A stretch of 64,000 bases of DNA from Geothrix paludis (GTDB taxonomy: Bacteria; Acidobacteriota; Holophagae; Holophagales; Holophagaceae): positions 124,001 through 188,000 of the forward strand of contig NZ_JAKZLC010000001.1 of the NCBI RefSeq assembly GCF_022808815.1, given 5' to 3'. Positions 15,971 to 49,322 of this stretch are shown here, one piece after another (within the stretch, counting starts at the first letter, position 1; the number at the start of each line of letters is the position of its first letter). The translations under genes were made by a program, and so were the position numbers. Under the pieces are notes generated by a model. The model did no database searches. It worked only from the letters and a program-made list of their open reading frames with translations, and was not told where the DNA came from.

Positions 15971-16020
15971 ACCCACCATCATGCCCGGGTTCAATTTCCT
16001 GTGCGTACAGGAAGGTGGGT
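15971..16020 (-). terminator. nested hairpin between prenyltransferase fusion and ABC ATPase
   Basis: TTCCTGT (15996-16002) and ACAGGAA (16007-16013) pair around a GCGT loop. ACCCACC (15971-15977) can pair with GGTGGGT (16014-16020), enclosing it. The outer arm touches the stop codon of the upstream fusion gene. It could end that transcript partly or affect translation of the ATPase; there is no T-run. Confidence 0.4.
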
Positions 16021-17585
16021 CAGGACAGGTGGGCCAGGGGGATGATCCCGAACCACAGGAGGTAAGTGAGGGCAAGGGCCATGAGGCCGTCGATGCGCTC
16101 GCAGGGCGCGCCGCGGCGGAGGTACCGGAGGATGGCCCGGGCCAGCAGCAGCGCATGGGGAAGGGCCAGGAAGACGAGGAGCCCGCTGGTCCCGCCGAAG
16201 AGGCCCCACCGCTGCCAGACCACCCCGCAGACAGCAGCCGCCACCGCAAAGCCCAGAGCGGCCCAGGCGGCCCCTCGGCGTCCCAGGAGCACCGCCAGCG
16301 TCCGCTTGGCCACGGCGTGGTCTGCCTCGTGGTCCGGCAAGGCCGAGAGCGTGATGGCGGAAAGGGTGGCCAGGAACAGGGGCAGGCCCGTGAGCCAGGG
16401 GAAGGGGTCCCGCCAGATGCCGGATTGGAGCAAGCCGCCCACGAAGATGGCCGCGAAGCTGTGGGTGAGGCCCACGTCCAGCTCCCCCAGGCCCCGATAG
16501 ACGAGCTTGAGGGGGGGCACAGTGTAGCCCGCGGCGAGCACCGCCAGGGCGATCATGGCCGCCAGGCCCGACCCGGACGGGGCCTGGACGGCACCCAGGG
16601 CCGCCAGGCTCGCGCCCAGCGCCAGGGCCAGCCCGGCCATGGCCCGCCGGACGCTGCGGGGGCCGAGTTCCCCGTCCGCCAGCACGCGGCTGCCGCCGTT
16701 GAAGGGGCCGGCGTGGCGGTTGAGGCGGTCCGTGCCCTGGTCGAACCACTCGTTGCTGACCACGGTGAGCGCCTCCATCAGGAAGAGGCACAGGTAGCCG
16801 AGCCAGTAGACGGGACGCGAGAAGGCGCCGTGCCTCGCCGCCGCCAGGGCGCCAATGGTGTAGGCCACCCAGGCCATGGGGTAGAACTGCAGGCGGAGCA
16901 GGCGCAGCCAGGCTCCGGCACGGCGGAGGAGGGCGTGGCGGCGGAGGCGGCCGGGCAGCCGGGTCGCTTCGGCCCGGGCCTGGCCCAGCCACCGGGCCCG
17001 CATCTCGGCGGTGGCGGGCTTCACAGGGGCGAAGGTGGAGATGAAAGTGGGCGCCACGCCGCAGAAGCCCAGAGTGGCGCGCCGCATGGCCTGGTGGCCG
17101 GGCTGGCGGTAGATGAGCCGGTAGACCCAGGACGGCGTGTCCATGGTCACCAGCAGGTGGGCCGAGCGCCCCTTCAGCAGCTTCGTCCAGGAGGCGGGAT
17201 CCTCGTCCTGGGCCTCGAAGGCGAAGCCGGGGGTGAGCACGCGGTCGAGGAAGCCCTTGAGCAGGGCGGGCAGGGTGCCCCACCAGGCCGGGTAGACGAA
17301 GACCAGGTGGTCGGCCCAGCGGATCAGCGCCTGGGCCCGGGCCAGGTTCGGTTCCAGAGGTTGTTCCCGGGGCGAGGGCGTCCGTACATTCGGATCGAAG
17401 GCGAGGCTGACGAGGTCGAGGCGCTCGACTTCGAAGCCCGCGGTCCGGGCGCCTGCTTCATAGGCCCCGGCAAGGGCCGCGCAGAAGCTGTCCAGGCGAG
17501 GATGACCCAGGATCACGAGAACCCTTGGTGCCGCGCCTTCCGTGGATGCCGCCACCTGCCCTCCGTCCGGATGGGATGGGGCCAT
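16020..17585 (-). CDS. fusion: NQO/KefF-type flavoprotein + UbiA/MenA-type prenyltransferase
   Basis: A 521-residue two-domain protein. Residues 21-210 resemble the flavodoxin-like NAD(P)H:quinone oxidoreductase family (VLVILGHPRLDSFCAAL start; VYPAWWGTLPALLKGFLDRV, the FMN/FAD-contact signature). Residues 235-521 are a polytopic UbiA-family prenyltransferase with first Asp motif N278-E-W-F-D282-Q-G-T-D286, the MenA-like FNGGSRVL loop, and second motif D418-H-E-A-D422. It plausibly prenylates an aromatic acceptor and reduces its quinone ring, as in menaquinone-type pathways. The ATG at 17583-17585 has AGGAG upstream. ispE ends 17 bp upstream on the same strand, suggesting a shared transcript. 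The domain calls are secure; joint function is inference. Confidence 0.82.
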   Translation of the reverse strand: MAPSHPDGGQVAASTEGAAPRVLVILGHPRLDSFCAALAGAYEAGARTAGFEVERLDLVSLAFDPNVRTPSPREQPLEPNLARAQALIRWADHLVFVYPAWWGTLPALLKGFLDRVLTPGFAFEAQDEDPASWTKLLKGRSAHLLVTMDTPSWVYRLIYRQPGHQAMRRATLGFCGVAPTFISTFAPVKPATAEMRARWLGQARAEATRLPGRLRRHALLRRAGAWLRLLRLQFYPMAWVAYTIGALAAARHGAFSRPVYWLGYLCLFLMEALTVVSNEWFDQGTDRLNRHAGPFNGGSRVLADGELGPRSVRRAMAGLALALGASLAALGAVQAPSGSGLAAMIALAVLAAGYTVPPLKLVYRGLGELDVGLTHSFAAIFVGGLLQSGIWRDPFPWLTGLPLFLATLSAITLSALPDHEADHAVAKRTLAVLLGRRGAAWAALGFAVAAAVCGVVWQRWGLFGGTSGLLVFLALPHALLLARAILRYLRRGAPCERIDGLMALALTYLLWFGIIPLAHLS

Positions 17586-47255: not shown

Positions 47256-48977
47256 GTGAAAGTCATCGTCGCCAAGACCGCAGGGTTCTGCTGGGGAGTG
47301 AAGCGCGCCATGGACGCCGTGCTGGAGGCCTCCGTGCGCAACGACGGCCGCAGCGTGCAGACCCTGGGCCCGCTCATCCACAACCCCCAGGCCCTGGAGC
47401 TCATCGGCCGGCGCGGCGTGGGGGTGGCCGAAGCGCCGGAGAAGGTGCAGAACGGCACGGTGGTGATCCGGGCCCACGGCATCCCCATCCAGGATCTGCG
47501 TGGCCTGAAGGAGCGGCAGAAGAAGGGCGAGCTGAAGATCGTGAACGCCACATGTCCCGAAGTGGCGAAGGTGCACCACAAGATCAAGAAGTGGAGCCCC
47601 AAGGGCTACTTCACGGTGATCCTGGGCAGCCACGGCCATGCGGAGAGCGTGGCCCACCGCAGCTTCGCGGAGAACGGATCGGTGATCGTCTCGAGCATGG
47701 CCGAGGCGGAGGCGCTCACGGACGAGCAGCTGAAGAGGGTCCTGGTGGTGGCCCAGACCACCTTCACCGTGAAGGACTACCACGCCATCACGGACTACCT
47801 GCGCACCCGCGCGGTGGATGCCGTCTTCGAGAACACCATCTGCGAAGACACCTGGATGCGCCAGGACGAGGCCCGGGAACTGGCCCGCACGGTGGATGCC
47901 GTCATCGTCGTGGGCGGCAAGACCTCCAGCAACACCAAGCACCTGGCCGAGCTGGCCCACCACTACGGCAAGCCCGTGCAGTACGTGGAGACGGCCGTGG
48001 AACTGGATCTGGGCGCCTTCACGGGCCGCGAGACCGTGGGCGTGCTGGCGGGCGCGTCCACTCCCACCTGGTTGGTGGACGAGGTGGTGGATGTGCTGGA
48101 GCAACTGGGGGACGGCCCGAGCCGCTGGCGCAGCTTCCTCCAGGCGACCTTCGGCAGCTCCTCGCTGATGGCGGTGGGCGCCGCGCTCATGACCCTCGGC
48201 GTCCACAAGTGGCTGGACCTGCGCATGGGCTGGCGCTACCCGCTCCTGACGGGAACCTACGTGTTGGCCATGTACCTGCTGACGCCTTTCCTGGATCCCC
48301 TGGGCCTGGGCGCCAAGGGGCCGGCGCGGGCCCGGTTCCTGGAGCGCAACCGCAGGGCCCTCGTGGCCCTGGGGGTGGTGGCGCTGCTGCTCACCCTGGG
48401 GCTCGCGGCGAGCCTGGGGCTGAAGGCCCTGGCCGTGGCGGCGGCCGCTTCGTTGGTGGGCGCGGGCTACAAGCGGCGCTTCCAGGTCGGCGGGTGGATC
48501 CTCAGCCTCAGGAAGGTTCCCGGCTCCAAGGATGTGGTGGTGGCCCTGGCCCTGGCCACGGTGGCCGTCATCATGCCGGTCTGGCAGGAAGGACGGGTCT
48601 GGGACCTGAGGGCCTTCGCGGCCATCTTCCTGGTGGGGGTGCTCACCTTCGTCCGGACGGTCATCTACGAGATCCGGGACATGCAGAACGATCAGATCGT
48701 GGGGAAGGAGACCCTGCCCATCTTCATGGGCAAGTCCGTCACCAAGGCGGTGCTGGTGGGCCTCCTCGGCACGCTGCTGGCAGGCACGCTCTGGCTCACC
48801 TTCGAGAACCGCCAGCACGGGCATCCCCTGGCCGTGGCCCTGGTGCTGGTGGCCTGCGCGGCCTATCCGGTGCTCTACCTGTGGCTCTACCACGAGCGCT
48901 TCACGGCGGGGAAGCACCGCTTCGAGCTGAGCGTGGACCTGAGCTTCTGGCTGGTGGGGCTGCTGGCCATCGTGTAG
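47256..48977 (+). CDS. ispH: fusion: IspH (HMBPP reductase) + UbiA-like prenyltransferase
   Basis: A 573-residue two-domain protein. Residues 1-285 are a complete IspH: Fe-S ligands Cys12, Cys100 and Cys196, His42, His128, the Glu130 region, and GKTSSNTKHL. It makes IPP and DMAPP, the last MEP-pathway step. Residues 300-573 are a polytopic UbiA-like domain with a clear second Asp motif, R473-D474-M-Q-N-D478 in IRDMQNDQIVGKETLPIFMGK, but a degenerate first motif (TPFLDPLGLG where NDxxD is expected). Activity of this half is therefore uncertain. The GTG at 47256 is the start. An IscR-type site in front fits Fe-S control. Not a sequencing frameshift: one frame throughout. Confidence 0.85.
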   Translation: MKVIVAKTAGFCWGVKRAMDAVLEASVRNDGRSVQTLGPLIHNPQALELIGRRGVGVAEAPEKVQNGTVVIRAHGIPIQDLRGLKERQKKGELKIVNATCPEVAKVHHKIKKWSPKGYFTVILGSHGHAESVAHRSFAENGSVIVSSMAEAEALTDEQLKRVLVVAQTTFTVKDYHAITDYLRTRAVDAVFENTICEDTWMRQDEARELARTVDAVIVVGGKTSSNTKHLAELAHHYGKPVQYVETAVELDLGAFTGRETVGVLAGASTPTWLVDEVVDVLEQLGDGPSRWRSFLQATFGSSSLMAVGAALMTLGVHKWLDLRMGWRYPLLTGTYVLAMYLLTPFLDPLGLGAKGPARARFLERNRRALVALGVVALLLTLGLAASLGLKALAVAAAASLVGAGYKRRFQVGGWILSLRKVPGSKDVVVALALATVAVIMPVWQEGRVWDLRAFAAIFLVGVLTFVRTVIYEIRDMQNDQIVGKETLPIFMGKSVTKAVLVGLLGTLLAGTLWLTFENRQHGHPLAVALVLVACAAYPVLYLWLYHERFTAGKHRFELSVDLSFWLVGLLAIV

Positions 48978-49034
48978 TTCTTGCCCTTTCATGGGGGACT
49001 GCTAGCCTTGGGGCACCTTTTCAAGGAGAGCCCT

Positions 49035-49322
49035 ATGCGCATGAAGTCGCTTGTCGTCCTCTCGGCCACGGCCATCCTCGGCGCCGCCCTCGGCTGGGCC
49101 GCCGCGGCCGCCAGCTACCAGAAGACCGGCACCGTGAAGGAAGTGGCCCCCGACAGCTTCACCCTCGACCTCGGCAAGGAGGCCTGGCGCTTCTACACCG
49201 ACGGCGGCACCGCCGGCAAGGAGGCCCTCAAGGTCGGCGACAAGGTGACCGTCACCTACAAGCAGGTGGCCACCAAGATCGAGGCGAAGGCCGCCGCCAA
49301 GGCTCCGGCGAAGAAGAAGTAG
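49035..49322 (+). CDS. small exported protein, unknown function
   Basis: A 95-residue protein: signal peptide (about 1-25), a 50-residue beta-type domain ([28 protein letters not shown]) and an Ala/Lys-rich tail, [10 protein letters not shown]. It looks like a small OB- or SH3-like periplasmic protein. It has AAGGAGAG before ATG 49035 and is followed by a perfect bidirectional terminator. No family is recognised. Confidence 0.65.

Follow-up and report, generated by a model that had tools for sequence, protein, structure and literature searches.

The stretch of Geothrix paludis DNA analysed here (64,000 nucleotides, below the window) encodes a genuine fusion of IspH with a membrane domain of the UbiA family, and this gene is the only IspH of its genome. 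IspH is the HMBPP reductase, the last enzyme of the MEP pathway, which carries a [4Fe-4S] cluster and yields IPP and DMAPP; it is essential and is usually regarded as a soluble enzyme. The fusion occurs in most genomes of the family Holophagaceae and recurs in other lineages, so that whole bacterial families would run the last MEP step solely on an IspH built into the membrane. With about even confidence, we interpret the protein as an active IspH kept at the membrane by its UbiA-derived half, a module that likely binds a ligand and is probably no ordinary quinone prenyltransferase. The IspH-UbiA architecture itself has been known since 2015; new here are its host range, its status as sole IspH, the congruent trees of the two halves and a lineage-by-lineage record of the active-site residues.

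Identification of the IspH-UbiA fusion gene

The earlier note had read one continuous frame joining a complete IspH to a UbiA-like domain, and profile and structure searches bore this out. The gene is a single uninterrupted frame that begins with a GTG codon (Table 1). Residues 3-281 matched Pfam LYTB (E=7e-79), and the score against the equivalog profile TIGR00216 was 252.9 bits, above the cut-off of 187.85 for a full-length IspH. The cluster ligands are C12, C100 and C196, as had been claimed. In an alignment of 26 fusions, these cysteines were invariant together with H42, H74, H128, E130, S224, N226 and S268, and T168/T169 are also conserved in the IspH domain. A Foldseek search of the PDB returned the IspH structures 3dnf/3szu with E values of ~1e-17 to 1e-18 (best 3.6e-18). 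The Geothrix genome contains no second LYTB match, and it also encodes IspG (GcpE), the enzyme upstream of IspH.

In the C-terminal half, residues 366-551 matched PF01040 (UbiA) with 52 bits, or 54 bits when this half was the sole query, well over the Pfam gathering score (34.2); the match covers profile positions 66-240 of 250, starting only at position 66. The AlphaFold2 model, for which a 26-row alignment was the input, had a mean pLDDT of 83.5 and a pTM of 0.78 and comprises an alpha/beta domain and about nine long helices, separated by a gap of some five residues. Among UbiA structures, Foldseek found 4tq3-4tq6, 4od4/4od5 and 8djk (the HMGCR-UBIAD1 complex) in the PDB, each with a probability of 1.00, and the TM scores (target) to UbiA structures of 0.53-0.64 identify the nine-helix UbiA fold. 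Another membrane family for this half is ruled out by the PF01040 score and the Foldseek results. The profiles, the model and the structure comparison are thus concordant.

Two neighbouring genes merged by a sequencing or assembly error would give the same picture, but the frame is found again, 72-98% identical, in dozens of genomes and several assemblies, with single-contig ones among them, so that chance and assembly error are excluded; nothing was found in favour of such an artefact, whose probability we regard as negligible.

Table 1. Features of the IspH-UbiA fusion gene (positions in the window)
Feature	Position	Strand	Basis or remark
IspH-UbiA fusion gene	47256..48977	+	573 aa, stop codon included; same frame in 68/77 Holophagaceae
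IspH (HMBPP reductase, LytB) domain, residues 1-284	47256..48107	+	Pfam LYTB, TIGR00216, invariant columns, Foldseek
Linker (~residues 285-289) and start of helix 290-300 entering the membrane domain	48108..48152	+	AlphaFold secondary structure
UbiA-fold polytopic domain, residues 300-573, ~nine transmembrane helices	48153..48974	+	PF01040, AlphaFold model, Foldseek
Degenerate first Asp motif T343-x3-D347-x3-L351 (AfUbiA N68/D72/D76)	48282..48308	+	Alignment; ligand roles from PMC4106721
Y405 (invariant), in alignment with the catalytic Tyr of AfUbiA (Y139)	48468..48470	+	Profile alignment to 4tq3
K425 (invariant, basic), where the fifth transmembrane helix starts	48528..48530	+	Conserved column; candidate diphosphate ligand
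Second Asp motif D475-x3-D479 (AfUbiA D198/D202)	48678..48692	+	Profile alignment to 4tq3

Distribution and evolution of the fusion

The domain was present in 80 of the 297 relatives searched. Named close relatives in the public collection are Geothrix and other Holophagaceae, and 68 of the 77 genomes of this family carry the domain, always in the fused form; most of those lacking it are incomplete drafts, and even genomes of ~1 Mb retain it. It is also present in all nine genomes of the sister family f2 and in three genomes from two other families of Acidobacteriota, f9 and f20, while family f3 of the same class has a plain IspH and gave no match to the domain. Of 77 genomes from the phylum of locus L063 (titled Nitrospinota), 11 have the fusion, and one more has a relative of the domain that stands alone. 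Wherever a match in the three host groups is not truncated by the end of a contig, the domain is joined to IspH. Outside a fusion, relatives of the domain came from Bacteroidota (L109, L110), from Natronomonas (L112) and from a single Nitrospinota-type genome (L157); those of Bacteroidota keep the second Asp motif and have H-x3-T in place of the first. Searches of viral and plasmid collections found no relative.

Of 16 fusion genomes tested, 14 have no IspH apart from the fusion; each of the remaining two has a second IspH, which is fused as well. Two loci of Holophagaceae, L174 (genome G065) and L175 (genome G077), hold a second, strongly eroded IspH-UbiA paralog that has lost Y405/K425 and some of the Asp residues and has kept the fold and the cluster cysteines of the IspH half. 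A search of 12 fusion genomes for the COX1 family, which also includes nitric oxide reductases and is therefore no proof of aerobic life, gave matches in nine, in one case weak and partial; a restriction to sulfate-reducing anaerobes thus does not hold here.

To follow the history of the two halves, we compared their separate trees. Both recovered the same deep groups, with the Nitrospinota-type, f9 and f20 sequences on one side and those of f2 and Holophagaceae on the other; support for the deepest forks was moderate (SH-aLRT 87-92), and long branches were flagged. This congruence fits one old fusion that was inherited, or moved, as a unit. The median dN/dS among Holophagaceae pairs was ~0.11 for the IspH half and ~0.19 for the faster-evolving UbiA half, indicating that both halves are under purifying selection.

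Active-site residues of the UbiA half

In AfUbiA, Mg is bound by N68 and D72 of the first motif and by D198 and D202 of the second, while D76 makes no direct Mg contact; the N68A and D72A substitutions abolish GPP binding, and function is lost on mutating the MenA equivalents and on mutating Y139 (PMC4106721). In the Geothrix protein, N68 aligns with T343, D72 with D347, D76 with L351, D198 with D475, D202 with D479 and Y139 with Y405. The first motif therefore departs from the canonical N-x3-D-x3-D, only its middle residue being kept, and the earlier note was right to call it degenerate. The second motif is an intact D-x3-D, as the note had also claimed, but its numbering of 474/478 was off by one.

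We compared the residue states over 41 fusions. All 14 Nitrospinota, f9 and f20 fusions and all six f2 fusions have Asn at the N68 position, where 18 of the 21 Holophagaceae sequences carry S, T, A or Q. At the D72 position, Holophagaceae show D, N or E, and f2 has S or N in four of its six rows and D in the rest. No fusion (0/41) has an Asp at the third position of motif 1, which says little because active human UBIAD1 also lacks this Asp (N102TYYDFSKG; PMC9314443). Motif 2 is kept throughout the set except in f20, where both Asp residues are lost, and in two further rows, one with an N (f9) and the other with an E. The Nitrospinota fusions retain the complete set of four direct Mg ligands. 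The losses are thus specific to lineages: the Asn is gone in most Holophagaceae, and motif 2 is gone in f20. In the f20 loci L158 and L159, the second motif reads I/V and then N, while motif 1 retains its Asn and first Asp. In UBIAD1, N102S blunts activity and lowers the affinity for GGpp (PMC4398444); the loss of the Asn in Holophagaceae is a change of the type that harms known members of the UbiA family.

In the main fusion lineages, motif 2, Y405, K425, P422, G483, P488 and G492 are invariant or nearly so. Strongly conserved columns gather at the mouth of the cavity (15/73 versus 4/201, Fisher p=1e-6, for regions bounded from known motifs after the alignment had been seen), and this clustering argues for retained ligand binding.

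Genome context

The genome contains five UbiA matches including the fusion. The earlier note had asked whether other UbiA or MenA genes were present, and the four found are an MqnP-like gene (TIGR01475 over its cut-off), a heme O synthase-like gene, a flavodoxin_2-UbiA fusion and one further, unassigned UbiA gene, the last two with an intact motif 1. An MqnP-like gene and a heme O synthase gene exist apart from the IspH fusion, so that a role of the latter as the menaquinone or heme prenyltransferase is unlikely; together, these four genes cover other needs. The flavodoxin_2-UbiA fusion also lies in the window (16020-17585, minus strand, 521 aa) and consists of a flavodoxin_2/NAD(P)H oxidoreductase followed by a UbiA domain whose motif 1 is NEWFDQGTD.

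Neighbours of the IspH-UbiA gene within the window are ppc, a gene for a small ExtJ-like protein and an SDR gene. The small protein (48981-49322, plus strand) is encoded directly 3' of the fusion, and its match to ExtJ, known from selenite/tellurite reduction operons, is weak and below the cut-off. In family f2, the gene immediately preceding the fusion (L058:3337-4155, L061:3325-4146) encodes a xylose isomerase-like TIM-barrel protein (PF01261, as tested in L058); in L061 it overlaps the fusion by 4 bases. A comparison of gene neighbourhoods across the fusion lineages revealed no common neighbour, and no conserved gene expected to make or use a prenyl acceptor.

Function of the fusion protein

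In the interpretation that we prefer, the N-terminal half would act as a standard [4Fe-4S] IspH on the cytoplasmic side of the membrane, forming IPP and DMAPP there, while the UbiA-derived helical bundle, attached through a short linker, would hold it where isoprenoids are used. The UbiA half of Holophagaceae, with its first Mg/diphosphate site damaged, is probably no longer an ordinary prenyltransferase; it probably still binds isoprenyl diphosphate, and the bound ligand could feed back on IspH. Since D347, D475, D479, Y405 and K425 are all kept, some prenyl transfer may persist, and the residues of the Nitrospinota fusions suggest that these may be active prenyltransferases. The earlier note had offered either substrate channelling or an anchoring or regulatory use of a former prenyltransferase. 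The latter fits Holophagaceae better; channelling is less favoured because IspH yields C5 units, characterised UbiA enzymes mostly take longer prenyl diphosphates, and the first site is damaged.

An active bifunctional enzyme, in which a working prenyltransferase serves some acceptor and the adjacent IspH supplies or locally enriches C5 units, is rather unlikely in our judgement. The conservation of motif 2, Y405, K425 and D347 and the four intact Mg ligands of the Nitrospinota fusions speak for it, and a Rosetta-stone proposal of this kind has already been made (PMC4746011). However, the fusion has been kept despite the loss of the N68 residue in most Holophagaceae, the change of D72 to S/N in four of six f2 rows and the loss of motif 2 in f20; furthermore, no conserved neighbour makes or uses a prenyl acceptor, and other UbiA genes, one of them MqnP-like, are at hand.

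Another rival, that the UbiA-derived bundle merely localises IspH and has no ligand role, we consider distinctly unlikely. It would account for the paralogs L174 and L175, whose fold and IspH cluster cysteines have outlasted Y405/K425 and some Asp residues, and for the faster evolution of the UbiA half, which in three genomes falls below the Pfam cut-off. Nevertheless, the (near) invariance of motif 2, Y405, K425, P422, G483, P488 and G492 is more than an anchor needs. That the UbiA half is a built-in isoprenyl-diphosphate sensor setting the activity or location of IspH is likewise a doubtful proposal; if true, this half would be a covalent bacterial counterpart, independently reached, of the UBIAD1-HMG-CoA reductase feedback pair.

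The fusions form a series, with the ligands intact in Nitrospinota, site 1 damaged in Holophagaceae, motif 2 lost in one family of Acidobacteriota and near-total loss in the two paralogs. The choice among enzyme, sensor and anchor can therefore be tested directly by comparing members of this series.

Comparison with known systems

The earlier note knew of no described function for such a fusion, which does have a literature: Rao et al. (2015) had reported 47 IspH-UbiA "Rosetta stone" proteins, mainly from Desulfobacterales and assigned to PT_UbiA_5; all were said to occur in sulfate-reducing anaerobes and to have two DXXXD motifs (PMC4746011). Channelling, membrane localisation or sensing was suggested there, the function was left undetermined, and expression was largely unsuccessful (PMC4746011). 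In the literature searched, the term IspH-UbiA occurred only in that study and in a paper citing it. Those proteins resemble the Geothrix protein in having an N-terminal IspH and a C-terminal UbiA-like polytopic domain in one chain, with separate UbiA/MenA genes in the genome. The hosts differ, being mainly Desulfobacterales by the published description and Holophagaceae, other Acidobacteriota and Nitrospinota in our analysis. The motifs differ as well: the Geothrix protein has D475-x3-D479 alone, its motif 1 being D-x3-L with T in place of Asn, although two DXXXD motifs are a property reported for the published set and not a condition of membership.

Fusions of IspH to RPS1 (PRK00087), found in Firmicutes and others, also give IspH a C-terminal partner, but there the partner consists of soluble ribosomal protein S1 repeats instead of a UbiA membrane domain, and the match of PRK00087 to the Geothrix protein is confined to the IspH half. 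The archaeal UbiA structures, AfUbiA (4TQ3-6) and ApUbiA (4OD4/5), share the fold and the positions of D198/D202 and Y139 with the fusion at 12-17% identity; they differ in N68 (T343 here) and D76 (L351 here), and only in the fusion is an IspH joined.

The UBIAD1-HMG-CoA reductase pair also couples a UbiA-fold protein to a key isoprenoid enzyme; UBIAD1, too, has a motif 1 with no third Asp, and it senses GGpp (PMC9314443). That pair is a non-covalent complex of the eukaryotic mevalonate pathway and acts on protein stability, whereas the fusion joins its two halves in one bacterial chain, and the parallel is one of analogy and not of homology between the systems.
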